DNA from: a virus
Virus record (IMG/VR): IMGVR_UViG_3300025435_000073
Location: 1 to 26,618 of that record
Reading direction: 5' to 3' (one strand)
DNA length: 26,618 bases
Of the stretch, positions 821 through 26,618 are shown one piece after another. The notes beneath the pieces were generated by a model. It did not search any database and was not told the origin of the DNA. It was given only the letters and a program-made list of their open reading frames with translations. The position numbers and the translations under genes were made by a program. Positions within the stretch are counted from its first letter, which is position 1. Each line of letters begins with the position of its first letter.

Positions 821-882
821 GCTGATAGTTCCTTCATAACTGTTAGAACGGATGGATGTTGGCGCATCGCGATCCGTACTAA

Positions 883-890: not shown

Positions 891-1335
891 ACAGTTTGAA
901 TCTTCTTACTTTTACAGAAATCCATCCGTTATACCATATACTTTCATCTAACAACACATCACAATCAAATTGATATTTTGATTCATAATATGACAATTCA
1001 GTTTTGCTTTTACAATATCTTAAAATTTCTCTTGTAAAATTATCTTTACCTATTTTGCCTACATCTTCGTTTAAAACATCATTTGATCCGTAATACTCTT
1101 GCCAATCACTATCTACTTTGCTGCGAATTTTCTTTTTTTTCTTAGTACCGTTTTTTAATTTTACTACCTTATAGGTAGTCTTTGCAAACTTTGCAAGCTT
1201 CTTGCCTATATATTTCCTGCCTGTGGTATTATTTGTGATTAGATAAACGAACCCAACACAGTCTTCAGGGAGAACTTCTACTATATTACCTTCGTAATAC
1301 CAACTGTTCTCTTTATTTTTGACTGCTCCTGTCAT
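889..1335 (-). CDS. GIY-YIG domain nuclease, 148 aa
   Basis: A small protein that is essentially one GIY-YIG nuclease domain. GFVYLITNNTTGRKYIGKK (about residues 28-46) gives the two half-motifs as FVYL and KYIGK. A basic loop KNGTKKKKKIRSK follows, then SDWQEYYGSN and a conserved Glu-rich helix (ELSYYESKYQF). The end, YNGWISVKVRRFKL, matches the usual ending of this family in T4-like phages as I recall it, so it looks full length. The start overlaps the end of the upstream small gene by 23 bases, with only a weak ribosome binding site, suggesting translational coupling. It lacks the NUMOD DNA-binding modules of the neighbouring nuclease, so it may be a resident phage nuclease rather than a homing enzyme. 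Substrate unknown. Confidence 0.75.
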   Translation of the reverse strand: MTGAVKNKENSWYYEGNIVEVLPEDCVGFVYLITNNTTGRKYIGKKLAKFAKTTYKVVKLKNGTKKKKKIRSKVDSDWQEYYGSNDVLNEDVGKIGKDNFTREILRYCKSKTELSYYESKYQFDCDVLLDESIWYNGWISVKVRRFKL

Positions 1336-4351: not shown

Positions 4352-4395
4352 AGTAACTCCTTGTGATTATAACTTAACACTAAAAAATGTTCTTG

Positions 4396-6204: not shown

Positions 6205-6506
6205 CAGCAAAATATTCACCTTCTAGTCCTTGGTATAAGACTCCTATATTAAATAATTCTCTAGATTTATGGGCTCCTAGGACCATACCTGCAAGAGATG
6301 ATGATTTTGAATATACTATATTACCTCAATACAACTATAGACCAGATCTATTAGCATTTGATATCTATGGAAATCCAAAACTATGGTGGGTTTTTATGCA
6401 GAGAAACAAGGATGTTATATTTGATCCTATATTTGATTTTAGGGCAGGAACTACTATCAAGTTACCTAAGAAGTCTGCATTATTATCGGCATTAGGAGTA
6501 AGTTAA
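6201..6506 (+). CDS. 53: Baseplate wedge protein gp53-like
   Basis: A 101-aa protein of the gp53 wedge family, which in T4 joins the wedge during baseplate assembly. The core LLAFDIYGNPKLWWVFMQRN followed by DPIFDFRAGTTIKLP has the family's D-x-YG-x-x-x-LWW ... G-x-x-I-x-LP pattern, a LysM-like arrangement. The ATG at 6201 is preferred over an in-frame TTG at 6195, because it overlaps the previous stop as ATGA, the coupling also used by gp47/gp46. It is about half the length of T4 gp53 (196 aa), keeping only the conserved domain. Confidence 0.82.
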   Translation: MTAKYSPSSPWYKTPILNNSLDLWAPRTIPARDDDFEYTILPQYNYRPDLLAFDIYGNPKLWWVFMQRNKDVIFDPIFDFRAGTTIKLPKKSALLSALGVS

Positions 6507-8744: not shown

Positions 8745-11700
8745 ATGGCAAGAACATCTGAACACGATCTCTCTTCATTAAGGATAGACCCGGGTCCGCA
8801 TATTGGTAAGATCGTTAGCAATGTTGATCCCCATAGGCAAGGTGCGGTACAGGTAGAATTATTAGGAAATATTGGTAATCAAAGAGGCGCAGATCAACAG
8901 GTATTTACTGTTAGATATGCTAGCCCTAGTTTTGGTTCTACGGATGTAGAACATGATGCAACGAATGCTGATGATCATCACTCATCGCAACAGAGTCACG
9001 GATTTTGGTCACCTCCTCCTAATACAGGATCTATGGTATTATGTGTTTTTGTTGGAGGAGATCCGGGACAAGGATATTACTTTAGCAGCATACAAGATCA
9101 ACATATGAATCAAAGTGTACCAGGAATAGCTTCAACTAAAAATACAAAGAAGCAATACAAATCTTATAATCCTGATACCGGAGATTGGTCTAAAACGACA
9201 GATACTAGTAGCCTCACTGATCAGGGTTCACAGCTTCCAGTAAGTGAGATAAATCGTCCGGCAGCCAAAGGTGTACAACCTGACACAAATAAAATGGAAA
9301 AACCTGTAAATAGTGCTAGGGTTAGCCAATTAGCAGAACAAGGACTTATAGATGATCCCTATAGAGGCACTCATACTAGCAGTGCTAGGAGAGAAAGTCC
9401 AAGCAATGTACACGGTTGGAGTACTCCCGGACCGTTAGACAAGACGCCAGGAGCTCCTACAAGATCAGTAGGACCTAGAGACACACAAGTAACTAAACAT
9501 ACATCTCGCCGCCCAGGGCATTCATTTATCATGGATGATGGCGATGAATCAAATCTCAGAAAGAGCAAAGCCGGCGAAGGACCTGCAGAATATGTTAATC
9601 TACAAAACGGCGAAACTGGCGGCGATGTATCGGTACCAAAAGATCAACAGATAAGGATAACCGCCGCTAATGGTGCACAATTTATAATGCACTGTGCAGA
9701 AGATTTCATACACATACATAATTCTAAAGGTACTGCCTGGATCGAAATGACCAGCAATGGCAAGATAGATATCTATACAGCAGATTGTGTTAGTGTACAT
9801 ACTGAAGCAGATTATAATATCACATCTGATAGAGACGTAAACATACACGCAGGCCGTGCTATCAATCTCTATGCAGATCATGATATCAATGCACATTCTA
9901 AATCAGAGATGCATATCAAAAGTGATTCTAATATAGCTATGAGTGCTAGTACTCACATCGCAGTAAATGCCGAAGGTGGTGATATCACCCTAATGTCAGA
10001 TGGTACAGCTAATATGACATCAGGTGATATAAGATTAGATTCTAGGAATATAGATGTTATGGCGCATGGTCATATACATTTAACTAGCAGCGGTAATACT
10101 GAGATTAGGGCAGAAAGCATCGCAGCAAGTGCTAGTATTGATATAGATATTTTAGCAGCCGGTACTATAAATCAAACATCTGCTACACAGCAGCTCAAGA
10201 CTTATTCGGCTTTCATATTGAAATCCGATGGCACGATAGATCAAAGATCAGATGGGCCTTTCAGTACTTCAGGAAGCGACATGGCTATGACATCAGATGG
10301 ACCACTTGCTGTTACTGGCGGGGGTACTATAAACATACAAGGCGGACCAAATGTCTTGCTCAACAGTGGTCCGGGCAGGAAAAAAGGTTCGACTACAGTA
10401 GCTACTGATCCATATAATGCCAGTTTAGATGCTGCTGCTACTTCTCCTATATCTGCTGGAGCAGCTAGGCAGGCAAATGAAGCTATGGGACGTAAACCAC
10501 ACCCAGCTAAGATCACAGCCGATCCAATCACCCACGCGATACACACTAATTATGGTAGGGCTATCACTAGCAGAGTACCATTGGATCACGGATCTTTCAA
10601 AGGATTTGAAAATTTTAATCCTCCGGGACATACACAGGATCTAACAGATAGACACAACTCTGATCAGCCGTATGCTAAAGGAGAAGAACGTCGACAGATA
10701 TCTAACAATGATGATCTAGAAAATATACCAAACGGAACACGCAAGCCCAGCCCGAATGTTTCGGGTGCAAGACGAAATCCCTATCCACATCACCCGTCTC
10801 CCAAAGGCGATCCTAGCAGCAATGTTGTTAGTCAAGAAAGCCAAATCAGTGATAGGAACACACCTAGTGATTGGGTACAAGATCAGGAATTTATGGGAGA
10901 TGTAGCAAAACTATCAGGTAAGCTAGGTATAACTGTAGCTGAACTGCTGTCTATATTTGCTGCAGAAACAGGAACTGCTAGCCTAGATCCATCAAAATCA
11001 AACGGTGATGGCTGCGTTGGTTTGGTACAGATCTGTAAGCAAACTAATCCGAAAACAGGAAAAACCAACTTTGATGAGCTCGCTGCACGTAGTCCAAAAG
11101 AAGCTGCAGAAGATCTAATATCTCCTGAAGGTATGAGGAAGTTGACTAGACATAGGCAGATGTTTTGGATAGAAAAGTATTTTGATCTTATATTACCCGG
11201 CGGTGCTGGTATCTTTCCAAAAGAAGATAGAGCTGTTTACATATGGTTAGCATTGGCTGCGGGAACAGATTCTAGCAAGCTCATTACTAAAAAAACTATC
11301 TATCCTTTCGCAGATACGAGATGCAAGCAGAACAAAGGTTGGCAAGATCCCACGCAGAATAATGACTGCACGGTCAAAAAAGCAGGTACATGGTTGCGTT
11401 GGTATGAGAAACAGTTTATAGCTCCTAAACTAGGAGCCAAAAGCTACAGCCCAGATCTATCATCTGGTCCGGGATCAACTATACAGCCAGGACCGGCAGC
11501 AAGCGCTCCGCCTCCAGGAAATTCATCAAGCAACTGGCCGGCCAGCACACAGAACGCACAGATGCCATCAGATCCACCAGGCGTACCAAATAGCACACGT
11601 TGGGCTTGGTATAATGGCAAATACATTGCCGTCGATGCTACAGGAACTCCAGTTGATTCTTCAGGAAATCAGGTCAGCCCAGATGCAGCATATTCAAAAC

Positions 11701-11807
11701 CACAAGTACTAGATAAACCTTCCGCTCCACCGGAATCGACCGGGGGATTGCCTGCTACACAGATGGCAGGAGGAAATCCTGATGGATCAGAGATTTTAAC
11801 AGCATAA
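8745..11807 (+). CDS. 5: gp5-like baseplate hub spike with C-terminal lytic domain
   Basis: A 1020-aa cell-puncturing spike. Residues about 14-115 form an OB-fold (HIGKIVSNVDPHRQGAVQVE, WSPPPNTGSMVLCVFVGGD). Residues about 290-547 are a repetitive beta-helix needle of VgrG/gp5 type, with short alternating repeats such as IDIYTADCVSVHTEADYNIT and DVNIHAGRAINLYADHDINA. A Pro/Asn-rich linker leads to a lytic domain at about 715-910: LLSIFAAETGT with a candidate catalytic Glu (E741), then GDGCVGLVQI, resembling goose-lysozyme/SLT transglycosylases. The tail (about 910-1020) is Pro/Ser-rich with WAWYNGKYIAVD. T4 gp5 (575 aa) places its lysozyme between OB-fold and helix; here the order differs and the fold appears different. 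The start has AAAGGTGA upstream. Confidence 0.88.
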   Translation: MARTSEHDLSSLRIDPGPHIGKIVSNVDPHRQGAVQVELLGNIGNQRGADQQVFTVRYASPSFGSTDVEHDATNADDHHSSQQSHGFWSPPPNTGSMVLCVFVGGDPGQGYYFSSIQDQHMNQSVPGIASTKNTKKQYKSYNPDTGDWSKTTDTSSLTDQGSQLPVSEINRPAAKGVQPDTNKMEKPVNSARVSQLAEQGLIDDPYRGTHTSSARRESPSNVHGWSTPGPLDKTPGAPTRSVGPRDTQVTKHTSRRPGHSFIMDDGDESNLRKSKAGEGPAEYVNLQNGETGGDVSVPKDQQIRITAANGAQFIMHCAEDFIHIHNSKGTAWIEMTSNGKIDIYTADCVSVHTEADYNITSDRDVNIHAGRAINLYADHDINAHSKSEMHIKSDSNIAMSASTHIAVNAEGGDITLMSDGTANMTSGDIRLDSRNIDVMAHGHIHLTSSGNTEIRAESIAASASIDIDILAAGTINQTSATQQLKTYSAFILKSDGTIDQRSDGPFSTSGSDMAMTSDGPLAVTGGGTINIQGGPNVLLNSGPGRKKGSTTVATDPYNASLDAAATSPISAGAARQANEAMGRKPHPAKITADPITHAIHTNYGRAITSRVPLDHGSFKGFENFNPPGHTQDLTDRHNSDQPYAKGEERRQISNNDDLENIPNGTRKPSPNVSGARRNPYPHHPSPKGDPSSNVVSQESQISDRNTPSDWVQDQEFMGDVAKLSGKLGITVAELLSIFAAETGTASLDPSKSNGDGCVGLVQICKQTNPKTGKTNFDELAARSPKEAAEDLISPEGMRKLTRHRQMFWIEKYFDLILPGGAGIFPKEDRAVYIWLALAAGTDSSKLITKKTIYPFADTRCKQNKGWQDPTQNNDCTVKKAGTWLRWYEKQFIAPKLGAKSYSPDLSSGPGSTIQPGPAASAPPPGNSSSNWPASTQNAQMPSDPPGVPNSTRWAWYNGKYIAVDATGTPVDSSGNQVSPDAAYSKPQVLDKPSAPPESTGGLPATQMAGGNPDGSEILTA

Positions 11808-11827: not shown

Positions 11828-12268
11828 ATGGCGGTACAAGGTTATAACAATCTAGTTGTAGGAAATGCAAATGCAGATCCTTATTACAAAAATTATCAAC
11901 CTAAGTCCTATAAAGGATTTAGTACTGTTAGCCCTATAGCCAAAAATGGTTCGTTGTATGATCTAGAATTGATCAAACAGGATCTAATTAACGCCTTCCA
12001 TATAAAGAAAGGTGAAAAATTAGAGAATCCTACCTACGGAACTATTATATGGGATATGTTATTTGAACCCTTAACTGATCAATTGAAAAAGATAATAACC
12101 AACGATGTTAACAGTATCATTAACAGCGATCCTAGGGTTAAAGTAGTAAAAAGTGTTATTACACAAGTAGATAAAGGTATACAATTAGAATTTACACTAG
12201 TGTACGTTCCCTATAATATCCAACAGAGTATGCAATTTACGTTCGATCAAAAAAACGGTTTGATTTAA
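11828..12268 (+). CDS. 25: Baseplate wedge protein gp25
   Basis: A 146-aa protein of the gp25/TssE-like wedge family that sits near the tail tube and helps start sheath assembly. It shows the family core: YDLELIKQDLINAFHIKKGE, NPTYGTIIWDMLFEPL, IINSDPRVKVVKS (the DPR/EPR-type motif) and IQLEFTLVYVPYN. T4 gp25 is 132 aa. An AGGGG ribosome binding site lies just upstream. It is placed between the hub spike and gp6, matching its structural partners, since gp25 contacts the gp6 core bundle in T4. Despite the older name, nothing here suggests lysozyme activity. Confidence 0.9.
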   Translation: MAVQGYNNLVVGNANADPYYKNYQPKSYKGFSTVSPIAKNGSLYDLELIKQDLINAFHIKKGEKLENPTYGTIIWDMLFEPLTDQLKKIITNDVNSIINSDPRVKVVKSVITQVDKGIQLEFTLVYVPYNIQQSMQFTFDQKNGLI

Positions 12269-12321: not shown

Positions 12322-15300
12322 ATGTCAGTAACTAACCGCCAGAATACACTATTTGCAGCTGAAGATTGGTCTAAGATCTATCAGACATTTACCAACGCCG
12401 ATTTTACCAGCTATGATTTTGAAAATATACGTAGGGTGATGATAACCTATCTTAGGGAGAATTTTCCTGAGAGTTTTAATGACTATATCGAGTCTAGCGA
12501 ATATCTAGCACTGATAGATCTCATAGCATTTTTTGGACAGAGTCTCGCTTATCGCTTGGATTTCAATGCGAGAGAAAACTTTTTAGAACTAGCAGAGCGC
12601 CGTGAAAGCATACTGAGATTGGCTAATATGATTAGCTACAATACCAGCAGGACTGTTTCTGCTAGCGGATTTTTAAAAATACAGAGTCTAACCACAACAG
12701 AAAATATAATCGATTCTAATGGCATAGGATTAGGAAATGTGCAGGTATCTTGGAATGATGGGTCTAACATTAATTGGTTTGATCAATTCACTAAGATAAT
12801 GAATTCTGCGTTTATAGATAACGTAGCATTTGGTAATCCATTATCTAGTGCTACTATAGACGGATTATATACTGAACAATATAAGATAAACAGCTATATC
12901 ACCGATGTTCCCGTATTTCCTTTTAGCGCAACAGTTAACGGAAACGGTTACAATTTTGAAGCGGTAAGCACTGTGATAGCTTATGATCCTAACTCTCAAA
13001 CCAATGTAGTGAGAGAAGATGTTCCGCAAAGAGGAAACCAGCTTTCTCTGATCTACACAGATGACGGACAGGGTTATGGTAGTGTTAATACTGGATTTTA
13101 TCTTCACTTTAAGCAGGGAACATTAGCACAGAATTCTTTCACTATAAACAATCCTGTTAGCAATCAGATAATCAATGTAGCAGCAACTAACATTAATAAC
13201 ACCGACGTTTGGTTGTATCAATTAGACAAGAATAATTTAGAATCTAAAGCTAATATATGGACACAAGTTCCTACGATTAACGGAAACAATGTGATCTACA
13301 ACAGCATTGATAAGACTGTAAAAAATATCTATTTTGTGCAGACCACTGCTAATGATAGCATTAGTTTAAATTTTGCTGACGGTGTTTTTGGTAATTTGCC
13401 AAAGGGCACTTTTAGGATCTATTACAGGACCAGCAATGGATTAACTTACACTATCCATCCTGCAGATCTATCTACAGTTATAGTAAATGTACCCTATGTT
13501 TCCAAATCAAACACACTAGAAACTCTCAAATTAATATTGGCTTTAGAAACATCCGTAACTAATGCTGCATCCACAGAAACAAATACACAGATAAAACAAA
13601 ATGCTCCATCTGTTTATTATACACAAAACAGGATGATAACAGGAGAAGATTATAATCTAGCTCCATTAAATGTTAGCCAAAATATCGCTAAAATTAAATC
13701 AATCAACCGTACTTCTAGCGGAATAAGCAGGAATTTCGATCTCATTGATTCTAGCGGAACATACAGCAGCACTAGTATTTTCTGTACTGACGGTATCATC
13801 TATCGACAGGACATACTCAATTCTTTTAAATTTACATTCAACAGCACTACTGATATCCAAGAAACTATACTTAATCGCATACAGCCCTTAACATCTCAGA
13901 TTTCTATGAGAGATTTTTATTATTCAAAATATAATAAGATAATTCTAAGTGATATAAATGCGATTTTTTATCAGATCACATCAGGTTATAATCAAAGCAA
14001 TGGTTATATAGGAAACAGTAATGATAAATCGCCGCTGGCTGTTATCTATACCGGCACCGCGCTAAAATATGTACAGCCCGGCGCTTTGATAAAATTTATC
14101 CCACCAGCTGGTAGTTATTTTACTACTAATGGAACACTGACTACTACTCCAGGTCCTAATACTACAGATAGGATATGGGCCAATGTTGTTTCTGTATCAG
14201 GTAATGGCACAGGCGTAAACAATAGCGGCAGGGTAAATTCTAGTGCTAATAGTTTAGGTACTATAACACTTGGACAAACAGTTCCAAATGGCGCTATATT
14301 GAATCAAATAATACCTGTGTTCTTAAATTATCTAACTGCTGATACACAGAGTGTAATGAACAATTTGATTTTTAATTATAGATTTTTTGGTTTAAGATAT
14401 GATGTTATCACAGCATCTTGGCAGATAATACAGGATAGGAATTTGAATTTACTATCTCCTTGGAGCACTGGATATGCAGGAGATAATACGGGTCAAAAAC
14501 TAGACAGCAGTTGGTTGATTTCTTTTGAAACAGATGGTTCTAATTATACAGTATCTTATAGGGGATTAAATTATTTCTTTGAATCTGTGTTAGAAAATCG
14601 TTTCTATTTTGATAACACAAGGAAGATATACGATACCGTGTCTGGATCTATACAGAAAGACAAGATATCAGTATTAAAAATCAATACTAAACCTGATTCT
14701 AATTCACCACTTTCTACTGATTATCCTTGGCAGATCGTGGGAAATGTTACGCAAAATAATGGATATTCCAGCACTAAGGTAGTGCAGGTATCATTTTTTG
14801 ATTCTAATGATGATGGTATACCAAATAATCCTGATGCTTTTGATATCATCGTTAATCCTCCAGTCTTAACTAACGATTCATTAACTAATAATAATTTTGT
14901 ATTTTTTGAAAAATATATAACTGACAATTACACAGAAGATTTTAGATATGTCAGTAATGACAATAATATGTTTTTAATTTTTGCTTCTCAGAATCATATT
15001 TCTAATCTAGGACAATATACTGACGGACAGCTGTTTTATTTTTATTCGTCTGATATAATTAAAAAATATGATGCTGCTAGCAGCAGATTAGTAGTCACGC
15101 AGAGCTATTTTGCTGCTGCTGGTAGGACTGGATTGTATTTCCATTATCTACATAATGCCGATTCTACGACAAGGATTGATCCTAGTTCAACTAATATAAT
15201 TGATGTATTCTTATTAACAAAAGATTATGATGTACAATATAGAAATTGGCTGATAGGCAACACAGATATACAACCACTTCCTCCGACCAGTACTAGTCTA

Positions 15301-15801
15301 CTAACTACTTACGGAGCATCTTTGAATGCTATAAAAAGTATCAGCGATGAAGTTATATACCATCCTGTTAGCTACAAAGTATTGTTTGGAAATAAAGCAG
15401 ATATTAGATTACAGGCACAGTTCTTGGTGATAAAAAACACTGAACAGGTGATAACAGATAACAATGCTAAAGCCAAGATAATACAGACTATCAACCAATT
15501 TTTTGCGCTAGGTAATTTTAATTTTGGAGATACTTTTTATTTTACGGAATTAAGCGCATATGTAATGAATCAGCTAACCCCTTACATAACTTCGTTTGTA
15601 ATAGTTCCATTAGCCAGCAATCAATCCTACGGTAGTTTGCAGGAACTTACATCAGATCCAAACGAAATATTTGTTAGCGGAGCCACTGTTGACAACATTA
15701 CTATAGTAGATTCTATAACAGCAACTAATCTTAAATCCACGGGATATGTATTAACTACATCTACCTTTGATGTAAATTCAACGAACCTAAAAAGCGGATA
15801 A
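12322..15801 (+). CDS. 6: Baseplate wedge protein gp6-like, enlarged
   Basis: A 1159-aa wedge protein of the gp6/baseplate J type; the gp6 dimer forms the inner baseplate ring in T4. The N-terminus has typical gp6 features: FENIRRVMITYLRENFPESF, then LIDLIAFFGQSLAYRLDFNA and ARENFLELAERRESI (about residues 35-105). The C-terminus (VIYHPVSYKVLFGNKADIRL, then FFALGNFNFGDTFYFTELS) is also gp6-like. T4 gp6 is 660 aa; the extra ~500 residues lie mostly between about 430 and 960 as beta-rich, Asn/Ser-rich sequence. Within it DSNDDGIPNNPD (about residue 826) has the D-x-N-x-DG spacing of a calcium-binding loop. The ribosome binding site is weak. A late-type promoter box precedes it. Confidence 0.88.
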   Translation: MSVTNRQNTLFAAEDWSKIYQTFTNADFTSYDFENIRRVMITYLRENFPESFNDYIESSEYLALIDLIAFFGQSLAYRLDFNARENFLELAERRESILRLANMISYNTSRTVSASGFLKIQSLTTTENIIDSNGIGLGNVQVSWNDGSNINWFDQFTKIMNSAFIDNVAFGNPLSSATIDGLYTEQYKINSYITDVPVFPFSATVNGNGYNFEAVSTVIAYDPNSQTNVVREDVPQRGNQLSLIYTDDGQGYGSVNTGFYLHFKQGTLAQNSFTINNPVSNQIINVAATNINNTDVWLYQLDKNNLESKANIWTQVPTINGNNVIYNSIDKTVKNIYFVQTTANDSISLNFADGVFGNLPKGTFRIYYRTSNGLTYTIHPADLSTVIVNVPYVSKSNTLETLKLILALETSVTNAASTETNTQIKQNAPSVYYTQNRMITGEDYNLAPLNVSQNIAKIKSINRTSSGISRNFDLIDSSGTYSSTSIFCTDGIIYRQDILNSFKFTFNSTTDIQETILNRIQPLTSQISMRDFYYSKYNKIILSDINAIFYQITSGYNQSNGYIGNSNDKSPLAVIYTGTALKYVQPGALIKFIPPAGSYFTTNGTLTTTPGPNTTDRIWANVVSVSGNGTGVNNSGRVNSSANSLGTITLGQTVPNGAILNQIIPVFLNYLTADTQSVMNNLIFNYRFFGLRYDVITASWQIIQDRNLNLLSPWSTGYAGDNTGQKLDSSWLISFETDGSNYTVSYRGLNYFFESVLENRFYFDNTRKIYDTVSGSIQKDKISVLKINTKPDSNSPLSTDYPWQIVGNVTQNNGYSSTKVVQVSFFDSNDDGIPNNPDAFDIIVNPPVLTNDSLTNNNFVFFEKYITDNYTEDFRYVSNDNNMFLIFASQNHISNLGQYTDGQLFYFYSSDIIKKYDAASSRLVVTQSYFAAAGRTGLYFHYLHNADSTTRIDPSSTNIIDVFLLTKDYDVQYRNWLIGNTDIQPLPPTSTSLLTTYGASLNAIKSISDEVIYHPVSYKVLFGNKADIRLQAQFLVIKNTEQVITDNNAKAKIIQTINQFFALGNFNFGDTFYFTELSAYVMNQLTPYITSFVIVPLASNQSYGSLQELTSDPNEIFVSGATVDNITIVDSITATNLKSTGYVLTTSTFDVNSTNLKSG

Positions 15802-15820: not shown

Positions 15821-18800
15821 ATGGCAAGTAATGACGAATATCCATTACCAGTAACTATAGACGATCAAAACAAAAGGCAGTCTTCTAGGCATTTGCCTAG
15901 GTTTTTCCGTACTGAGCAGAATGAAAAATTCTTATCTGGAGTGCTTGATCCTCTCCTACAACCTGGAAAATTAAACAGGGTCAACGGATATGTTGGTCGT
16001 AAAGATATACCTAATTTTAATATCAGCGACAACTATCAATCTGATGTTACAACTATGCGTCAGTATTATCAGCTAGAGCCAGGATTTGTATATCAAGATC
16101 CTGCTACAGGAGAACCGACTTGGTTTGCTGATTATTTAGATTATATGAACAGTTTGGCATTTTATGGAGCAAATACAGCTAACCATGCCAAACTTAATAC
16201 AGAAGAAGCCTATGCTTGGGATCCAAGCATTGATCTAGATAAATTTGTTAATTTTAGAGAATATTATTGGTTACCAAGCGGTCCAAATCCAATAACCATT
16301 TTCGGACATCAGATAGCTACTACTAGCACATTTACTATCACTACTATAAATGAAGGTGATAGGATAGATTATCTGTTTACTCCTGATGGACTAACTGCTA
16401 ATCCTAGATTGACTTTGTATAGAGGCAATACCTATACATTCAAAATTAATGCTAAAAATAAACCTTTTTCTATAAAGACACAGCCAATAACCGGAAATAG
16501 TTATCTTTATAACACTGGTGTTTCTAGACAAAATATAGACATCGGAACTATTACTTTTACTGTGCCTTACGAAGCACCCGATTTGCTTTATTATATAGAT
16601 AATAATGATGCTAATTCTCAGGGATTTATAGATATACGAGATATAGATCAAGATACAGAATTAGATGTAGAAAAAGAAATATTAGGTAAGATAAACTATA
16701 CTAGCACTTCTGGTATCTCTTTTATCAATGGTTTGAAATTAAAATTTATTGGAAATATTACACCGGTAAAATATGCTACTGGTACTTGGTATGTTGAAGG
16801 TGTTGGAACAGCGATAAGGTTGATAAGTTTTGATGATTTAGAATCAACTCCCCTAACTAATGATCCAACTGATTTGCCATTTGATTTGCAGCCATTTGAT
16901 ACCGTACCTTTTGACAATGCAAATAACTATCCAACCGCAAAAGAGTATCTGGTTATTAATAGAGGCAGCAGAGATCGCAATCCTTGGACTAGGAACAATA
17001 GATGGTTTCACATAAGTGTTATAGAAACTTCAGCACTAGCCAATAATCAAATTGCTTCTCCTGATCAGACCACACGAGCACAAAGGCCGATCATAGAATT
17101 TTTACCAGATATAAAATTACATCAGTTTGGATGGATAGCTAAAAAAGATGTGGATCTCATAGATACTACTACTAAGACTGTTTTTAGGACTATTGAAGGT
17201 AGTTTGGGATATTATGTAGATGGCGAACCGCTATTACCTGGACAACGTGTATTATTTACAGCAGACACAGACCCACTAGTTAACGGAAAGATTTATACAG
17301 TTAGCACTATAGTAGTTAATACTACTAGAATAAAATTCTTATCAGCAGCGTGTACGTTAGTTACACCTTATCAAGTTACATTTACTTTTGATGAATTAAT
17401 CGCAGCACCACCTATAAATGTAGGATATACTGTTGAAGGGAATAGCAATGCGAACTATAGCGGTCTATATAATGCTATATCTAGCACTACTTCTAGCATA
17501 ACACTAATATATCCACAGAATCCTGGAATTTTTGGAAACGGAATCACTACCGGTGTTTATGATAATTTTGGACGCCGCCCTCAGCTAACTCTCATACCAG
17601 CGGTAGACAGCGATCCTAACGAAGGAGAAGTTGTATATTCAAAGGGCGGAGTTAATAATAAGGGATCTTCTTTTTACTACGACGGTACTGTTTGGCAAAA
17701 GGCACAACAAAAGACAGCAATTAATCAAGCTCCTCTCTTTGATCTCTTTGACAAGAATTCTATTAGTTTTTCTGACAAAACAGTGTATACAAACACATCA
17801 TTTTCTGGAAATAGGATTTTTGGATATAGGATAGGACTTGGTGCAGCAGACACTGAACTAGGTTTTCCTCTATATTATCGTTCTATAGACAACGTAGGAG
17901 ATATTGAGTTTGAGTTTGATCTAGAAAATACCGATTGGAACTATGTAGATGGGTCTGCTCTAGCTACTGTATATTCTTATCAGGGATTTTTGAGGAAGTA
18001 CGATCTAAACGGTTCTTTTAGCTTTTTAAATGGATGGACTGCTACATATCGAAACCTATACCAAAAGGCAGTTAGGATATTAGAAGTTACACAAGCAACT
18101 GATCTAATAGCTATTGATATCTTTAATAATAGTGCAAATCTTTCAGATATAAATGCACAAGTTTATGTTAATAATATCAAGAGAAACGATATCTCCAGGA
18201 CCAACATTAATGGAGTAGCTTATATTAAATTTGCTAACGGATTATCAGTTGGAGATCAAGTCGTATACAAGATACAAACAACAGCTGAAAAAAATGCTAG
18301 AGGATATTATGAAGTACCCTACAATTGGCAAAATAATCCATTTAATGAAACTCTAGGGTATTTTACCCTAGGCGAAGCTGTTGATCACGTCAAGACTATT
18401 GTGGAAAATAATCCAAGATTTTCGGGAAATTTTCCAGGAACAAGTAATCTATCTACGATCGGTAATCTAGCAAAATATGGACATCGTTTTTTACAACACG
18501 CCGGATCATTTCCACTAGCTGCATATCTTATCACCGATAAGAGAAATAATGTAGTAGATGCATTGAAATGGACTGCAACTCAATACACACAATTTAAGAA
18601 AGAATTCTTACGTATAGCAGGTGTTTCTGCTTTTGAAGGTACTATATCTGAGAGAGTAGATCAGATATTATCTGAATTTTCAAAATCAAAATATCTAGAC
18701 AAATCTGCTTTTTATTTTTCAGATATGGCTCCGTGTAAAGGATTTACACAGAGGAACTATATCGTACAGGACACAAGATTACCAGTATTTGTCATTGATA

Positions 18801-21800
18801 GCATTTTCAATCCTCAGTCACAGACTAGGAGAAGTGTGCTAATTTATGTTAATGATGTACAGTTAACATATCTGATAGATTATAATTTTAGCACAACTGA
18901 TGCATTTGTCAACATATCTTTTCCATTAAATATTAATGATACTGTAACTATTAAAGATTATGCTAGTACAAATGGATCATATATACCCTATACTCCATCT
19001 AAGCTAGGAATTTATCCTAGCTATGCACCTAGAATTTATATCGACGATACCTATATAACACCAGTAAAAGTTATACAAGGACACGACGGCAGCATAACAT
19101 TAGCCTATAATGATTATAGAGATAACCTAATATTAGAAATAGAAAAGAGGATTTATAATACTAGGCGCATAGCCTATAATGATAACATTTTTAATATGAG
19201 AGATGTTATTGGCGGATATTTTAGAAGCAGTTTTGTTAGCGCATTCTTTACAAAAAATGATATTGATAATATATTACTACCTGATTTTCTAAAATGGAAT
19301 TCTCTAATCAATCAGGATTATAATAGCAATTATTATTACGAAGATGGAGTTAGCTTTACCTATAATTACAGCAATTCTTTCGCACCAGATGGCGCTACAC
19401 CGTTACCAGGTTATTGGCGTGCAATATATCAGTATATGTATGATACTGATAGGCCACATAGCCATCCTTGGGAAATGCAAGGTTTTACTGTTAAGCCAGC
19501 CTGGTGGGATACGGTTTACGGACCAGCACCCTACACTAGCGAAAACAAAGTAATGTGGATAGCTATCGAACGAGGTATAATCAACACTCCCGGGTATAGG
19601 AGGACTGATTCTAGATACGCACGTTCCGGATTAACAAATTATCTACCAGTTGATGATCAGGGAAATTTATTAAGTCCTTTAGATAGTAACTTGATAAAAG
19701 ATTTTTCTCTAGTCAACGCCAAGGGAATATATTCATTCGGTGACGGTGCACCAGTTGAAGCTGCTTGGCGCCGCTCAAGTGAGTTTCCTTTTAGTATAGT
19801 AAAGGCTATGTGTGTATTATGCGGTAGCGATTATATTGGTAAAATGTGGGATAGATTTACTATAAAAAGGAACCTAGCAGGCCAGATCTATAATGCCAAT
19901 ACCGGAAAAAGATTCAATACAGCTGATATTGTCTATCCAAACACACCATTAGGTGATGCAAACGATCCAAATGTAGCTAGATCTATGAGCAACGGATTGG
20001 CCAATATCATAGATGATTATGTATTTTCTCTCAATGCAGTTAGTTTAGACACTTACAAAAACGTTATAAGCGGGTTAGACAGCAAACTAAGTCATAGATT
20101 AGGTGCTTATACAAGCAAAGATAAACTTAATGTTCTCTTAGATAGCCGCAGTCCTACTGCTAGTGGAACGGTATTTTTACCACAAGACAACTACCATGTG
20201 TTCTACAATCAAAGTTCTCCTGTAGCAAGTGTTGTTTATAGCGGAGTTTTAATCGAAAAATTAAACTTCCAAGGTACTCAAGCCAACCAGATGTCAGGAG
20301 ATTATCTGTATACGGCTCCACCTATTGGTTATAAAGTAAGCGGATATGATAAGAAATACGGTATATTCCAGATATTACCACCATTAAAATTAAAAAATGA
20401 TCCAACCTTTAATATAGGTGGCGTTACAGAACCGTTTGCCGAATGGACACCTAATCAATTTTACAACCAAGGATTTATTGTTAAAACAAACAATCGTTAT
20501 TATAGGGCGATAGTTGCTAATACTTCTTCTGGTAATTTTGCTTTAGATGCTGCAAAATGGGCTTCTTTAAGCAGCCTACCTATTACTGGTGGTGTTACGG
20601 CGATAAACAGGACAAAATTTTCGGATACTACTAAAACTATACCTTATGGAACTATACTACCTGATATACAGTCTGTAGTTGATTTCTTGTTAGGATATCA
20701 AGAAAAATTAAAATCAAATGGATTTAAATTTGATCAATTTAATAAAGATTTAGGTGTAACTTTAGATTGGTTAACAAGTGCTAAAGAATTTATGTTTTGG
20801 TCTCTGCAAAACTGGAATTCCGGTGCTATCATAACATTAAGTCCTAGTGCTACATACCTACAATTTAATCCAACTATTACTGCATCTATTGATGATTTTA
20901 GTTCTTCAGCGTTTGAATACAGCATATTAAAAGCTGACGGAACACCATTTAAATTAAATCTAATTGACATCCATAGGATAGATAATGGATTTACAGCTAG
21001 TCCAAATAACTCTGGAGACGGAATTTATTTTGTTAGAGCAAATCTAATACAGAGAGAACACGTATTATTATTAGATAACATATCTGATTTTAACGATACA
21101 GTCTATGACAAAGTAAGCGGTTATCGACAGGGCAGAGTAAAGCTAATTGGTTTTAAAACAGGAAACTGGGATGGAGGATATACTACACCCGGATTTATGT
21201 ATGATGCTGCTACAATAATCACTTGGCAACCATTTGTAGATTACAATCTAGGCGATATTGTAAGTTATAAAAATAACAACTATGTAGCTATTACCAATGT
21301 GCCCGGATCTAGTGATTTCAAATACAAGGATTGGAAACAGCAAACCAAGACATTACCAGCAGGTCTAATGGCCAATTGGGATTATAGAGTAGAGCAGTTC
21401 CGAGATTTCTATAATTTAGATGCTAGTATTTTTGATGATAATCAAAAGAAATTAGCTAGACATCTAATAGGTTATCAGGATAGACCTTATCTCGATAATA
21501 TAATAATAGATGATGTAGCACAGTTTAAGTTTTATCAAGGATTCATACGAGAAAAAGGCACGTTCAATAGCATAACTAAGCTATTCGATGTGCTAAGATC
21601 GAGTGGATTTAGTACTGTTAATCTATACGAAGATTGGGCATTTAAGGTCGGTGACTATGGTGCATCTGATGCATACACTGAAATAGAATTTCCATTGGAT
21701 GAATCACAATTCCGTCATAATCCACAAGACGTAGTATTAACCATTAATCCTGAATACCAAACAGATTTAACAATTTACAATGTTTCTTCTTCTATGGTCA

Positions 21801-24800
21801 CTATAAAACCATCTGACTATACAGCTACACCATTTCCGACGACAGCTATAGACAGCAGTCAAAAAAATTATGGTATATTTAAATATCAAGTTGCTGGATA
21901 TGTACGATCTGATGATGTAGAACACATAATTTATAATAGGGCAGCCTTATTAAATTATGATATAACACAGTTCCGTAATGGAGATAAGATTTGGTTAGCT
22001 TACACTGAGAATAATGATTGGGATGTTTTAGAATATATCAAATTAGATTTAACTGTTACTACTTGGACAGTTGATTTTGTTACTAATTCGCACATCTACC
22101 TATATTGCGATACTACATTAGATCTTGCTAGAGGTGATGTTATATCGCTATCAAATCTAGATCTAATAGACGGATCATATATAATACAATCTGTAAGCAA
22201 TAATATTATCACTATCTATTCACTGCTTACATTAGCTACTATACCAAATATAGTAACTAGTGGTGTTATACATAGATTAGCTTCTGTTAGATACAAAGAT
22301 CTAAATTCTGTATCTGATAAGATATACAATAAATTTGATATTTCCGGTGAAAAATTATGGATAGATAGTGATTTATCCGGTAATTGGCTGGTTTTAGAAA
22401 ACACAAATGCCTTCTTTAGCTCAGATAAAAAATCAAAAGAAGACGAAATAATACCATATACTAAAGTTGATGGTCAGCAAAATGGATATGAAATAAAGAT
22501 AAGCGGTAATGGATTGTATATGATAGTTAGCTCACCATTCAATGGAAGAGGAACTGTGGTCATATATAAGAGGCCAAACAATCTAAGCCAATGGGCATAC
22601 GCACAGATTCTAAAAATTCCAGCAGACTTTATAGATACTATTTCGAATGATCAATTTGGTATAAGCCTTGAGATTTCATATGATGGGCAGATGATATTAG
22701 TCGGTGCACCGTATGCATCAAATTTACGAAGCTTCTATAAAGGTGTATTTGATCTGTATACTCTATATAATATAGGCGATATAGTAAAATATAGCGATGG
22801 CACAAATGAATTTTTCTATAAAGCAAAAGTACGTGTTCCAGGAAATGGTTCTTCTTTCTTATATCAAAATTGGGACCTGCATAACATATATCTAGGAGAT
22901 CCGGGAGGATATCAGTCGACACTTAGCAATCAGGGTGTGGTTTTTGTTTTTGAATATGATCGTCTCTATACTAACAAGTTTTTAGAAAAAGTAGTATTGG
23001 CATCTAGTGATCCGGTAGCTAACGAGCATTTTGGTTATAAGATGAAAATGGTATCAGATCCAGTTTCAAATGATACTGTACTTTTTGTTTCTGCTAAGGA
23101 TTATAGTTATGATATCTTTAACAAAATCACAACTTCTAGTAGCACAAAATCTACAACATTACATTTTGCAAATACTACCAATATATTAATTGGGCAAGAA
23201 ATATTTGGAATTATAGATCCAGTAACAGGCACTGCGGTAAATGTTAAAGTTGTTAGCGTTAATCAAAATGGCACAACGATCACTGTTGATCAATATGTAA
23301 CGGTATCGTCTAGCCAAACACTCACATTTTCTCTAAATGCTATAGGTAGAGTGCAGGTACTACGTTACAATACTACAGATGGTTGGAGATATAATTATAT
23401 AAATCCTTTCGTAAAATTACCAACAGTTCCGGGAAATTTTCCGCCTAGCAGTTTCAGTATTTCAAGTAATTCTCAATACGGATATGATCTAGATTGTCTA
23501 TCTGATCTCAGTATAGTTGCTATATCTGCACCCGGATCTGGAGCAGGAATAGTATATGTTTTTAAGATAGAATCTCAAACTTATTCAAGCGTTGTTTCGC
23601 AACTGAATGGATTAGGATTTATTTCTTTTGGATTGTTTGAAGTATTAAGTTCGGAAACACTAACTAACGGTAGCTTACTCAACACAGTCGGAGGTTATAT
23701 AACAGAAGGTGATGCATTTGGTTATAAAGTAATATTAAGCGGTAATTCGCTAATAGTAACAGCTCCAAATAATAATTCAAGAGGAAATCACGTAGGTGCT
23801 ATCTTCAATTTCCAAATGTTATCTTCAAATTCTCAGATTAGCTCCGCAAAATATCAACTACAACAGGTAATCATACCTCCGGTTACTAATACCTATGCTT
23901 ACGAGAGATTTGGAACAAGTTTATCTATAGATCCAAAAGGAAATATACTCAGCATAGGTGCTCATGGTGGACCTTCTGTATTAGACACTACATTTGATTC
24001 CTATGCCAGTGCTTTATATCAGAATTATTCTTTTGATTTAACTGAAGTCACTGGTATAAACGGTACAGGACCATATTATGTAGATTTTAATATATTACCA
24101 CAACTAGCAGCTCCTGCTGTTGATCTCTATTATACTATATCAGGAAATGATAACGGAAATTATAATGGAGTTTTCCTAGCAACAAAGAGTAGCGAAACAG
24201 CTATAACATTTGAATTTTTAGATTTTCCTGGACAGTTTAGCACAGGCACAACTGTAGCAGTTGATACTGATTTAAAATATATATTAGATCCTAATAGTGA
24301 AACAATAACTCCTACTACTTTTGACAACAATTCAACTAAATTCTACGATCAGATAGCATTTACTGGAGCAGTTTACGTTTACAACAGATTTGATAACAAT
24401 TTTATCTATGCAGATAGGATAACTCCAACAAATAATCTTAAAGCTCAAGATAATTTTGGTTTTAGTTTATTCACATCATCTAATTGCATCGTTGTAGGAA
24501 CACCCAATAGAGCATTTGCAGGTGCTGTTTATGGATCTGTTTTTGTCTTTAATTATACAAACACTAGCTGGAAAATATTACGATCAGCAACACCGCTAGT
24601 AGATGTTAATAAATTTAAAAAATCTTTTTATTATAACACTAAAACTAACAAATTGATCGGAAATCTAGATCTATATGATCCAGCTAAGGGAAGGATACCC
24701 GGAATAGCTGATCAAGAAATTAAGTATCAAACTTACTATGATCCAGCAGTTTATCAATATAATGGTAATACTTCTTTAGCTATCAATGCCGACCAAACTT

Positions 24801-26618
24801 GGACAGATGCACATATTGGTGAGATTTGGTGGGATCTTTCTACTATAAAATATACTTGGTATGAACAAGGTGACGTAACATATCGTAATCTCCAATGGGG
24901 ACAACTATTTCCAGGATCGATAGTCAATATATATGAATGGGTTGAATCAAAATATCTACCTAGCAAATATGCAACTTTGGCTGATACTACAGCAGGAATT
25001 GCCGCAGGAATAAGCGGTATTCCTAAAGATACATCTGACACCACATATAGCACAAAAACAAAATATGATAAAACTAGTGGAATAGTCACTACTTTATATT
25101 ATTTTTGGGTAAGCAACAGGAAAATAATTCCTTCTTTTAAGGGCAGGAACCTAAGTGCCAGTGATATAACTAAACTTATTGCTGATCCTAAAAGCCAAGG
25201 ATATGAGTTTGTTAGTATGACAAGCGAAAGCAGTCTTTCCTTAATAAACATTAAACCAAAATTAATAGGAACTAATATTTCTCTTAATTTCCAATTTTAT
25301 AAAATTGAAAATAGAGATTTAGCAGTACATAGAGAATATGCATTAATTGCTAAAGGAGACAGAGATTCGGTCATTCCGTCGATACTAGAAAACAAATGGT
25401 TTGATAGTTTGATAGGATTAGATATAGCTGGTAATCCCGTACCGGATACTAATTTAAGTATAAGGCAGAGATATGGAAATTCCAACAATCCAAGGCAATC
25501 TTGGTTTGTAAACAGGAACGAAGCACTAAAGCAATATATAGAATATGTTAATTCTGTATTAATATCATATAATTTATTAGATGAGGTTAACCTAACTAAT
25601 TTACAAAAAGAAGAATTAGCGCCATCTATACTATCCGGAGAAATAGATCTAATCGTTAATACGATAGAAGATCTAGCATATATAGGTACGAGTTCGTTGC
25701 GTACAGCACAGTTGTCATTAGCTATATCTAATGGACAAGTTATAGATGTTTATGTGATTGATTCGGGATTTGGTTACGGCAAAAATAAAATATATCAGAC
25801 TGATATATACGGTAATCCGATACTATGGTACGGTCCTACAGTAGAAATAACTGGTACTGGAACCGGAGCAAAAGTACAGCTTTACGTAGATGCTTATGGC
25901 AGTGTTGACGCCTACGGAACAGCGGAGGTTGTTAAGGGAGGAAGTGGATATGATAATGATATTAGTTCTACAGGAACTTCTATCTCTACGATAGCAACTG
26001 TTAGAGATTTTACAGTATTAGTAACATCAGATTCAGAAGCACTAGGTAGCTGGAGTATACATACTTGGTCATTCATAAGTTCTGTTGCTGCACAAACTTA
26101 CGCAGCAGCGGCACAAAATAGCTTTGCTCAGTTAGCACAAAATGCATTAAAACAGTGGACAAGGATTAAAACACAATCATATAATGTTAAAAGATACTGG
26201 TCTTTCGTTGATTGGTATGCTACTGGGTATACTGCACAATCGGACGTTAAACACATTATTAATCATACTAGTGACCTGGGTGGAACTAAGATAGATATAG
26301 GTGACCTAGTAAAAGTAACCAACGCCGGATTAGGAAATTGGCTGTTGCTATTGAGAGTTGCTGTAACCAACAATCCGGATTTTACTGTAGATTATCATGT
26401 AGTAGGTCAACAAAATGCTACTATACAATTTTCAACGGCGCTATACAATTATAACAACCAAGTTGGATATGATAAAATTTACAGTTATGACCTAGATCTT
26501 TATGATTCTAATCCTAGCCTAGAACTAAGGATAATATTAGAATCTATCAGGGATGACATATTTGTTAAGAATTTAAAGATTAATTACAATACTCTCTTCT
26601 TTAATAACGTACATTATG
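15821..26618 (+). CDS. Giant modular virion protein, right end outside window
   Basis: An uninterrupted frame of at least 3599 codons starting at ATG 15821 (GGAG 12 bases upstream), with no stop before the window edge; I translated it through and found no frameshift. The N-terminus HLPRFFRTEQNEKFLSGVLD and blocks NRGSRDRNPWTRNNRWFH (about 385), HPWEMQGFTVKPAWW (about 1215) and AAWRRSSEFPFSIVKAM (about 1312) look conserved with giant structural proteins of marine T4-like phages. Modules: cupredoxin-like segment (about 188-276), three CBM5/12-like segments (about 1536-1584, 1800-1841, 2311-2354), FG-GAP-like blades (about 2220-2920), GSGY-type repeats (about 3305-3386), then helical sequence. 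Sitting after gp6, where T4 has gp7-gp12, it may replace peripheral wedge or fibre proteins; that role is inference. Host-surface binding is suggested by the modules. Confidence 0.88.
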   Translation, partial: MASNDEYPLPVTIDDQNKRQSSRHLPRFFRTEQNEKFLSGVLDPLLQPGKLNRVNGYVGRKDIPNFNISDNYQSDVTTMRQYYQLEPGFVYQDPATGEPTWFADYLDYMNSLAFYGANTANHAKLNTEEAYAWDPSIDLDKFVNFREYYWLPSGPNPITIFGHQIATTSTFTITTINEGDRIDYLFTPDGLTANPRLTLYRGNTYTFKINAKNKPFSIKTQPITGNSYLYNTGVSRQNIDIGTITFTVPYEAPDLLYYIDNNDANSQGFIDIRDIDQDTELDVEKEILGKINYTSTSGISFINGLKLKFIGNITPVKYATGTWYVEGVGTAIRLISFDDLESTPLTNDPTDLPFDLQPFDTVPFDNANNYPTAKEYLVINRGSRDRNPWTRNNRWFHISVIETSALANNQIASPDQTTRAQRPIIEFLPDIKLHQFGWIAKKDVDLIDTTTKTVFRTIEGSLGYYVDGEPLLPGQRVLFTADTDPLVNGKIYTVSTIVVNTTRIKFLSAACTLVTPYQVTFTFDELIAAPPINVGYTVEGNSNANYSGLYNAISSTTSSITLIYPQNPGIFGNGITTGVYDNFGRRPQLTLIPAVDSDPNEGEVVYSKGGVNNKGSSFYYDGTVWQKAQQKTAINQAPLFDLFDKNSISFSDKTVYTNTSFSGNRIFGYRIGLGAADTELGFPLYYRSIDNVGDIEFEFDLENTDWNYVDGSALATVYSYQGFLRKYDLNGSFSFLNGWTATYRNLYQKAVRILEVTQATDLIAIDIFNNSANLSDINAQVYVNNIKRNDISRTNINGVAYIKFANGLSVGDQVVYKIQTTAEKNARGYYEVPYNWQNNPFNETLGYFTLGEAVDHVKTIVENNPRFSGNFPGTSNLSTIGNLAKYGHRFLQHAGSFPLAAYLITDKRNNVVDALKWTATQYTQFKKEFLRIAGVSAFEGTISERVDQILSEFSKSKYLDKSAFYFSDMAPCKGFTQRNYIVQDTRLPVFVIDSIFNPQSQTRRSVLIYVNDVQLTYLIDYNFSTTDAFVNISFPLNINDTVTIKDYASTNGSYIPYTPSKLGIYPSYAPRIYIDDTYITPVKVIQGHDGSITLAYNDYRDNLILEIEKRIYNTRRIAYNDNIFNMRDVIGGYFRSSFVSAFFTKNDIDNILLPDFLKWNSLINQDYNSNYYYEDGVSFTYNYSNSFAPDGATPLPGYWRAIYQYMYDTDRPHSHPWEMQGFTVKPAWWDTVYGPAPYTSENKVMWIAIERGIINTPGYRRTDSRYARSGLTNYLPVDDQGNLLSPLDSNLIKDFSLVNAKGIYSFGDGAPVEAAWRRSSEFPFSIVKAMCVLCGSDYIGKMWDRFTIKRNLAGQIYNANTGKRFNTADIVYPNTPLGDANDPNVARSMSNGLANIIDDYVFSLNAVSLDTYKNVISGLDSKLSHRLGAYTSKDKLNVLLDSRSPTASGTVFLPQDNYHVFYNQSSPVASVVYSGVLIEKLNFQGTQANQMSGDYLYTAPPIGYKVSGYDKKYGIFQILPPLKLKNDPTFNIGGVTEPFAEWTPNQFYNQGFIVKTNNRYYRAIVANTSSGNFALDAAKWASLSSLPITGGVTAINRTKFSDTTKTIPYGTILPDIQSVVDFLLGYQEKLKSNGFKFDQFNKDLGVTLDWLTSAKEFMFWSLQNWNSGAIITLSPSATYLQFNPTITASIDDFSSSAFEYSILKADGTPFKLNLIDIHRIDNGFTASPNNSGDGIYFVRANLIQREHVLLLDNISDFNDTVYDKVSGYRQGRVKLIGFKTGNWDGGYTTPGFMYDAATIITWQPFVDYNLGDIVSYKNNNYVAITNVPGSSDFKYKDWKQQTKTLPAGLMANWDYRVEQFRDFYNLDASIFDDNQKKLARHLIGYQDRPYLDNIIIDDVAQFKFYQGFIREKGTFNSITKLFDVLRSSGFSTVNLYEDWAFKVGDYGASDAYTEIEFPLDESQFRHNPQDVVLTINPEYQTDLTIYNVSSSMVTIKPSDYTATPFPTTAIDSSQKNYGIFKYQVAGYVRSDDVEHIIYNRAALLNYDITQFRNGDKIWLAYTENNDWDVLEYIKLDLTVTTWTVDFVTNSHIYLYCDTTLDLARGDVISLSNLDLIDGSYIIQSVSNNIITIYSLLTLATIPNIVTSGVIHRLASVRYKDLNSVSDKIYNKFDISGEKLWIDSDLSGNWLVLENTNAFFSSDKKSKEDEIIPYTKVDGQQNGYEIKISGNGLYMIVSSPFNGRGTVVIYKRPNNLSQWAYAQILKIPADFIDTISNDQFGISLEISYDGQMILVGAPYASNLRSFYKGVFDLYTLYNIGDIVKYSDGTNEFFYKAKVRVPGNGSSFLYQNWDLHNIYLGDPGGYQSTLSNQGVVFVFEYDRLYTNKFLEKVVLASSDPVANEHFGYKMKMVSDPVSNDTVLFVSAKDYSYDIFNKITTSSSTKSTTLHFANTTNILIGQEIFGIIDPVTGTAVNVKVVSVNQNGTTITVDQYVTVSSSQTLTFSLNAIGRVQVLRYNTTDGWRYNYINPFVKLPTVPGNFPPSSFSISSNSQYGYDLDCLSDLSIVAISAPGSGAGIVYVFKIESQTYSSVVSQLNGLGFISFGLFEVLSSETLTNGSLLNTVGGYITEGDAFGYKVILSGNSLIVTAPNNNSRGNHVGAIFNFQMLSSNSQISSAKYQLQQVIIPPVTNTYAYERFGTSLSIDPKGNILSIGAHGGPSVLDTTFDSYASALYQNYSFDLTEVTGINGTGPYYVDFNILPQLAAPAVDLYYTISGNDNGNYNGVFLATKSSETAITFEFLDFPGQFSTGTTVAVDTDLKYILDPNSETITPTTFDNNSTKFYDQIAFTGAVYVYNRFDNNFIYADRITPTNNLKAQDNFGFSLFTSSNCIVVGTPNRAFAGAVYGSVFVFNYTNTSWKILRSATPLVDVNKFKKSFYYNTKTNKLIGNLDLYDPAKGRIPGIADQEIKYQTYYDPAVYQYNGNTSLAINADQTWTDAHIGEIWWDLSTIKYTWYEQGDVTYRNLQWGQLFPGSIVNIYEWVESKYLPSKYATLADTTAGIAAGISGIPKDTSDTTYSTKTKYDKTSGIVTTLYYFWVSNRKIIPSFKGRNLSASDITKLIADPKSQGYEFVSMTSESSLSLINIKPKLIGTNISLNFQFYKIENRDLAVHREYALIAKGDRDSVIPSILENKWFDSLIGLDIAGNPVPDTNLSIRQRYGNSNNPRQSWFVNRNEALKQYIEYVNSVLISYNLLDEVNLTNLQKEELAPSILSGEIDLIVNTIEDLAYIGTSSLRTAQLSLAISNGQVIDVYVIDSGFGYGKNKIYQTDIYGNPILWYGPTVEITGTGTGAKVQLYVDAYGSVDAYGTAEVVKGGSGYDNDISSTGTSISTIATVRDFTVLVTSDSEALGSWSIHTWSFISSVAAQTYAAAAQNSFAQLAQNALKQWTRIKTQSYNVKRYWSFVDWYATGYTAQSDVKHIINHTSDLGGTKIDIGDLVKVTNAGLGNWLLLLRVAVTNNPDFTVDYHVVGQQNATIQFSTALYNYNNQVGYDKIYSYDLDLYDSNPSLELRIILESIRDDIFVKNLKINYNTLFFNNVHY
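16382..16650 (+). other. Cupredoxin-like domain segment within the giant protein
   Basis: Codes for residues about 188-276. The pattern PRLTLYRGNTYTFKINAKNK, then PFSIKT, ITFTVPYEAPDLLYY and a final GFIDI matches the edge and core strands of the cupredoxin-like beta-barrel common in marine phage and bacterial surface proteins. In copper-binding versions the strand after the first block carries His (HPF) and the last turn carries Cys/His; here these are KPF and YYIDNNDANSQG, so the metal site looks lost. Domain call is by pattern only. Confidence 0.5.
20428..20573 (+). other. CBM5/12-like module 1 in the giant protein
   Basis: Codes for residues about 1536-1584. EWTPNQFYNQGFIVKTNNRY, then YRAIVAN and DAAKWASL follow the chitin-binding type 3/CBM5-12 layout: W at the first strand, Y-x-x-G-x-x-V, N-x-x-YY-x-A, and a closing K/D-W. 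Confidence 0.5.
21218..21343 (+). other. CBM5/12-like module 2 in the giant protein
   Basis: Codes for residues about 1800-1841. TWQPFVDYNLGDIVSYKNNN, YVAITNVPGSS and YKDWKQ give a clean W ... Y-x-x-GD-x-V-x-Y-x-x-x-x-Y-x-A/V ... D-W pattern typical of small carbohydrate-binding modules. It is the best match of the three. Confidence 0.55.
22478..24580 (+). repeat. Array of FG-GAP/integrin-like propeller repeats in the giant protein
   Basis: About seven degenerate repeats of the type FG-x-S/K-[hydrophobic] ... [hydrophobic]3-GAP/SSP ... GA/GV-[VI]-YVF. Examples: NGYEIKISGNGLYMIVSSPF (22478 on), DQFGISLEISYDGQMILVGA (22646 on), EHFGYKMKMVSD (23014 on), QYGYDLDCLSDLSIVAISAP (23471 on), DAFGYKVILSGNSLIVTAPN (23711 on), ERFGTSLSIDPKGNILSIGA (23906 on) and DNFGFSLFTSSNCIVVGTPN (24449 on). 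Integrin-alpha-type beta-propellers have seven such blades. A third CBM5/12-like module (22751-22881, YNIGDIVKYSDGTNEFFYKA and YQNWDL) is inserted between blades two and three. Confidence 0.65.
25735..25980 (+). repeat. GSGY-type beta repeat segment in the giant protein
   Basis: Codes for residues about 3305-3386. Two copies of a motif of the form G-x-[IV]-x-x-V-x-V-x-x-x-G-x-GY are seen: GQVIDVYVIDSGFGYGKNKI and GTAEVVKGGSGYDND, joined by VEITGTGTGAKVQLYVDAYG. This motif recurs in marine phage structural proteins as short beta-rich linkers; the role here is unknown. Confidence 0.5.

Follow-up and report, generated by a model that had tools for sequence, protein, structure and literature searches.

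An integrin-alpha-type beta-propeller in a giant baseplate protein of uncultivated jumbo phages: a candidate receptor-binding platform

We found that a giant protein encoded in the baseplate region of an uncultivated virus contains a predicted closed seven-bladed beta-propeller of the integrin-alpha type, with additional modules on one face of the ring. We tentatively propose that, in an uncultivated jumbo-phage clade, this integrin-head-like propeller could be a modular receptor-binding platform, with a constant ring and one decorated face that expands by taking up CBM-like and larger domains, a parallel to the alpha-I insertion of animal integrins; this full proposal is possible rather than probable. 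The finding places an integrin-type propeller as a fixed part of a giant baseplate protein in a widespread clade of uncultivated jumbo phages.

Integrin-type propellers are known mainly as animal adhesion domains and from uncharacterised bacterial proteins. The original prediction, made from the DNA sequence, had called such a fold under-described in phages, and the literature agrees with this view. Among open-licence papers, none was found that brings FG-GAP, phage, and baseplate together, and those joining FG-GAP, phage, and propeller deal with unrelated topics. Two jumbo-phage overviews contain neither 'propeller' nor 'integrin'; one of them names LamG and other lectin domains.

The window (the whole stretch of DNA analysed, 26,618 nucleotides) is a 26.6-kb virus record, and its last ORF, 15821-26617 on the plus strand, bears the propeller. 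This ORF has 3,599 codons and is open at the contig end, with no stop codon. In the nearest relatives the protein has about 5.5 kaa, the open frames of L088-L090 being 5,499-5,612 aa. The profile phrog_10938, labelled 'virion structural protein', covers most of the scaffold around the propeller. The order gp25, gp6, giant ORF matches that in phrog_10938-type jumbo phages, and about 2,000 residues can be aligned with giant proteins encoded at this place in the gene order of Agrobacterium phage Atu_ph07, Sinorhizobium phage Phosso, Pseudomonas phage MIJ3/PA5oct, RaK2, SCTP-2, and Vibrio phage 2.275.O. The giant ORF is the gene after gp6 of a T4-like jumbo phage, the position of T4 gene 7; we claim this position and not identity with gene 7. 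The T4 gp7 chain was not among the matches listed in a fold search of scaffold residues 900-1985, which does not exclude gp7. By its gp53-, gp5-, gp25-, and gp6-like neighbours (Table 1) and its homology to the jumbo-phage virion structural family, the protein belongs to the baseplate region, as had been predicted. The opposite strand of the window carries gp46-, gp47-, and late-sigma-factor (gp55)-like genes, as well as two ORFs, 224-925 (-) and 889-1335 (-), that resemble GIY-YIG homing endonucleases by eye.

Table 1. Positions in the window of the baseplate genes, the giant protein, and the predicted parts of its propeller
Feature	Position	Strand	Basis or remark
gp53-like baseplate wedge subunit	6195..6506	+	phrog_7145, E 1.2e-26
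gp5-like baseplate hub and tail lysozyme	8745..11807	+	phrog_13211, E 1e-29
gp25-like baseplate wedge subunit	11828..12268	+	phrog_261, E 9.7e-15
gp6-like baseplate wedge subunit	12322..15801	+	phrog_10646, E 1.5e-283
Giant virion structural protein	15821..26617	+	at least 3,599 aa; phrog_10938, E 5.3e-291
Scaffold upstream of propeller	18518..21775	+	residues 900-1985; common to RaK2-like jumbo phages
CBM5/12-like module 1, in scaffold	20441..20533	+	residues 1541-1571; PF02839, E 5.7e-6
CBM5/12-like module 2, in scaffold	21206..21346	+	residues 1796-1842; fold match 8fqc_P1
Predicted integrin-alpha-type seven-bladed beta-propeller	22406..24583	+	residues 2196-2921; AF2 model, VIA-align, FG-GAP_2
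Blade 1	22481..22615	+	model strands
Blade 2, split by CBM-like insert	22649..23002	+	model strands; FG-GAP_2, 19.6 bits
Blade 2 strand 2-3 insert, CBM5/12-like	22712..22933	+	core 22757-22873 (residues 2313-2351)
Blade 3, split by all-beta insert	23024..23419	+	model strands
Blade 3 strand 2-3 insert, small beta domain	23099..23344	+	model
Blade 4	23471..23650	+	model strands
Blade 5	23711..23878	+	model strands; FG-GAP_2, 21 bits
Blade 6, split by insert	23903..24427	+	model strands
Blade 6 strand 2-3 insert	23966..24364	+	model; similar module elsewhere in relatives' copies of the protein
Blade 7	24449..24583	+	model strands; FG-GAP_2, 20.3 bits
Scaffold downstream of propeller	24623..25600	+	residues 2935-3260; conserved

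The structure of residues 1986-3020 was predicted by AlphaFold2 (AF2) with 44 sequences. The model had a mean pLDDT of 78, with values of mostly 85-94 in the blades and poor ones in a stretch of the blade-6 insert. DSSP assigned seven blades of four strands each. In the Foldseek search integrins ranked first (E 5e-10), and VIA-align was then run against the best Foldseek candidates; its top 50 rows were integrin alpha chains without exception (50/50; Z 29.4-31.9, 357-379 aligned residues, rmsd 2.7-3.4 Å). The matched part, model residues 211-936, corresponds to protein residues 2196-2921, which according to the model form a closed seven-bladed propeller of the integrin-alpha type. A closed integrin-like propeller had been expected at 22478-24580, and structure prediction, which had been suggested as a check, gave this fold over almost exactly that span. 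Matches among viral predicted structures (BFVD) included an uncultured Caudovirales protein, many giant-virus FG-GAP proteins, a cyanophage S-TIM5 virion protein, the Atu_ph07 'hemagglutinin', and proteins of mimivirus-like viruses. The phiKZ protein gp131C was absent among the fold-search matches listed, which excludes nothing. The PDB matches share the fold, and a shared fold is not a demonstrated function.

The repeats are also evident in the sequence. The ORF contains seven in-frame FG...GAP...GxVYVF repeats, in agreement with the 'about seven' that had been noticed. PF14312 (FG-GAP_2) matched the 3,599-aa protein with 45.7 bits (cut-off 23; E 7.3e-12) and the slot alone, i.e., the stretch between the conserved scaffold blocks that end at residue 1985 and resume at 2935, with E 5.3e-14. 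In a Pfam scan it matched 43 of 44 homologous slots, and blades 2, 5, and 7 were scored singly (Table 1). An HMM for single blades, built up from the seven query repeats, scored above 8 bits 347 times in 91 homologous slots and not once in 273 shuffled slots. The repeats thus have a significant profile match, though PF01839, the profile originally proposed for this check, matched nothing in the window and only 3 of the 44 homologous slots. A PDB sequence search gave one non-significant match (E 0.04). The G of the strand-1 FG motif is present in all seven query blades, preceded by an aromatic residue in six, and is retained in 49-67 of 67 aligned slot sequences, depending on the blade. The Cage proline after strand 2 occurs in five of the seven query blades and in 1-61 of the 67 sequences by blade; it is poorly retained in blades 3, 4, and 6 of the relatives. 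DxDxDG calcium loops were absent from the query slot, and one of the 67 relatives has one.

The propeller fills this single slot. MIJ3, RaK2, Vibrio phage 2.275.O, and L100, a locus from IMG/VR, have a short slot whose flanks align with no propeller between them, and the slots of Atu_ph07 and Phosso hold a long stretch with no blade hits. None of the six cultivated relatives examined directly (of 59 phage records with the protein) has a propeller in the slot. In a tree of the upstream scaffold with 57 propeller-bearing rows, these six relatives fall outside the propeller clade, and the propeller label needs two changes; L100 is probably a loss of the propeller. When 50,697 phage records were searched at the protein level with the propeller of the query or of L090, no same-slot homologue was found: the query matched only Phosso FG-GAP proteins (E 3e-4), L090 matched none, and a DNA-level search of phage records gave no match. 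Likewise, an IMG/VR scan with the propeller alone returned no relatives, and the conserved flanks were needed to find them; related contigs number roughly 600. The alignment for AF2 prediction of the scaffold was built without rows from annotated phage records, and the fold of the upstream scaffold gave no convincing whole-domain match, with only its two CBM-like modules being matched. The best explanation of this distribution is that the propeller was inserted as a folded unit in a loop of the giant baseplate protein of jumbo myoviruses and then kept across a large uncultivated clade.

FG-GAP_2 proteins also occur outside the baseplate gene. In G012 (the record of L082), three adjacent FG-GAP_2 ORFs of about 415 aa each lie at 30806-34940, and others lie at 80019-80966 in the record of L043 (G005) and at 19395-20537 in that of L026 (G006). 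Phosso (PV764938.1) has 64 FG-GAP_2 matches at E<=0.1 in 48338-68978 and 92229-94508, spread over four ORFs, two of which encode proteins of about 3,200 and about 3,700 aa while the other two are smaller. In a GTDB scan, contigs with the giant-protein gene were found in six bacterial MAG loci (L104-L109), from Endomicrobia, Neomarinimicrobiota, Puniceicoccaceae, and Gammaproteobacteria. We set these aside as host evidence, as phage contigs have most likely ended up in bacterial bins here.

We then surveyed the loops in 67 aligned homologous slots. All seven blades are retained, with near-constant cores. The strand 2-3 loop measures 6-830 aa in blade 2 and 14-259 aa in blade 3, and upper loops reach 83 aa in blade 4 and 133 aa in blade 6. 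Length ranges of the upper loops go up to 824 aa, whereas the lower (1-2 and 3-4) segments are mostly 0-25 aa; two lower outliers, with ranges of 62 and 73 aa due to one sequence each, may be alignment slips. The ranges of the 13 upper (2-3 and 4-1) and 14 lower loops differ (Mann-Whitney p 5e-4). Searching the slots with a profile derived from both CBM5/12-like scaffold modules gave 65 CBM-like hits, and every one lay in an upper loop: blade 2 had 29, blade 3 had 23, blade 4 had 11, and the last 2 were in 4-1 loops. The same search of 335 shuffles gave none. Because of the propeller topology, the 2-3 and 4-1 loops share one face; the CBM-like and other modules, which lie almost solely in these loops, therefore stand on one face. 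The display of the insert on a propeller face, as originally suggested, is thus supported. In integrins, the ligand contacts and the alpha-I domain sit on the FG-GAP/Cage face, opposite the calcium loops. The calcium loops of integrins join strands 1-2 and 3-4 and lie at the other end from the FG-GAP/Cage motifs [PMC3192720]. The limitation of the insertions to the integrin ligand-binding face hints at the site of the host-recognition surfaces of these phages, and the insertions form a natural series on one scaffold that is open to comparison and testing.

The CBM5/12-like insert that had been placed between blades 2 and 3 is real, its core matching a family-specific local CBM profile with E 1.8e-5, but its place is within blade 2, in the loop that joins strands 2 and 3. 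It is also not single, since blades 3 and 6 carry two more inserts in the same strand 2-3 loop. The blade-2 insert alone gave no Pfam hit, including PF02839; across homologous slots, PF02839 (CBM_5_12) matched 21 of 44 at E<=0.01. Module 1 of the scaffold gave chitin-binding-domain fold matches, and module 2 matched the phage Milano baseplate chain 8fqc_P1 with Z 8.0 over 45 aa. In the fold search, CBM-like segments of the giant protein resembled modules of the Milano baseplate and the 7-7-1 tail fibres, with further matches in the Anabaena contractile system and the KP1 baseplate cup. The blade-2 inserts of L057, L024, and L020 are 550-830 aa long; in the slots that were scanned, Pfam gave only FG-GAP_2 and a weak CBM_5_12 match.

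The scaffold shares 83-90% identity with that of the three nearest relatives (L088, L090, and L089), against 56-67% for the blade cores and 54-60% for the upper loops. As the identity of blade cores and loops is lower than that of the scaffold, the propeller domain changes faster than its surroundings. In pairs with flank identity of at least 85%, the slots are 72-95% identical, and no swapping between phages was seen. Tail-fibre tips, unlike the propeller slot, are exchanged as cassettes. This pattern fits a host-facing or partner-adapting surface and not a fast cassette system.

We consider it somewhat probable that the propeller is a platform that displays modules on one face for attachment to the host surface. 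The blades would form a rigid ring, the wedge-associated scaffold would anchor it at the baseplate, and its decorated side, exposed at the baseplate rim, would point outward and grip host-surface glycans or other receptors during attachment, thereby taking part in adsorption. What such a platform grips is most likely the bacterial surface. The giant protein of L090 also has a Laminin_G_3 (concanavalin-like, lectin-like) domain downstream, at residues ~4220-4360, in the C-terminal part that lies beyond the end of the window. The lack of slot swapping in close pairs counts against an attachment platform.

The main alternative, possible if on the doubtful side, is a docking hub whose decorated face binds virion proteins such as tail fibres or neighbouring wedges, with the CBM-like modules acting as protein-protein connectors. 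Folds of the CBM5/12 type occur within solved phage baseplates and fibres, so sugar binding is not required, and the four contractile or tail structures matched by the modules (Milano, 7-7-1, Anabaena, and KP1) favour such connectors. The joint divergence of scaffold and propeller without swaps also favours docking, and the many extra FG-GAP proteins of these phages could do the host binding instead. A partner-constrained interface, however, fits less well with inserts of 6-830 aa in one loop and with evolution faster than that of the scaffold, and relatives manage without the domain.

The cultivated relatives that have no propeller still have working tails, as would be expected if the insertion were a passive spacer that just enlarges the baseplate; the retention of seven blades across a divergent clade and the location of every CBM-like insertion on one face make this improbable. 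Still harder to credit is an enzyme, i.e., a sialidase- or lyase-like depolymerase similar to phage endosialidases: Foldseek does list the latter, but only from rank 43 down, the top 50 VIA-align rows are all integrins, and Pfam scans of the 3,599-aa protein and of 44 slots matched no hydrolase family.

Among known phage systems, phiKZ gp131C (4GBF) forms a propeller of seven blades at the periphery of the baseplate, for which a receptor role has been proposed, and the receptor-binding protein of the siphophage phi11 is a homotrimer with five-bladed propellers [PMC4901313]. The former resembles our case as a seven-bladed propeller in a jumbo-phage baseplate, but it is the C-terminal domain of another protein rather than a domain inserted in the gene that follows gp6; the latter likewise uses propellers as platform domains but differs in its five blades and homotrimeric state. 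The FG-GAP proteins in BFVD (S-TIM5, the Atu_ph07 'hemagglutinin', and mimivirus-like viruses) share the propeller fold but are mostly smaller or stand-alone, and they are not known to be inserted in any baseplate scaffold. The RaK2-like giant structural protein (phrog_10938) has the same scaffold and gene order, whereas its examined cultivated members have no propeller in the slot. Bacterial integrin-type propellers, described in 2011, are likewise prokaryotic sevenfold FG-GAP repeats without integrin context [PMC3192720]. That set required seven full-length motifs, whereas the phage motif is degenerate in some blades, and the phage domain sits within a baseplate protein.

From the N-terminal propeller of integrin alpha, the phage propeller differs in sequence (15-18% identity) and in having no DxDxDG calcium loops. 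Metazoan integrin alpha chains carry these loops in blades 5-7 and in some cases also in blade 4. The phage inserts are CBM-like or small beta domains inside the blades instead of a vWA domain, and a beta-subunit partner is not expected in a phage. The two share seven four-stranded blades with FG-GAP repeats, and the whole ring aligns with an rmsd of about 3 Å. In both, an extra domain buds near blades 2-3: the CBM-like insert in the phage and, in integrins, the alpha-I domain, which sits between blades 2 and 3 [PMC3192720, PMC12422189].
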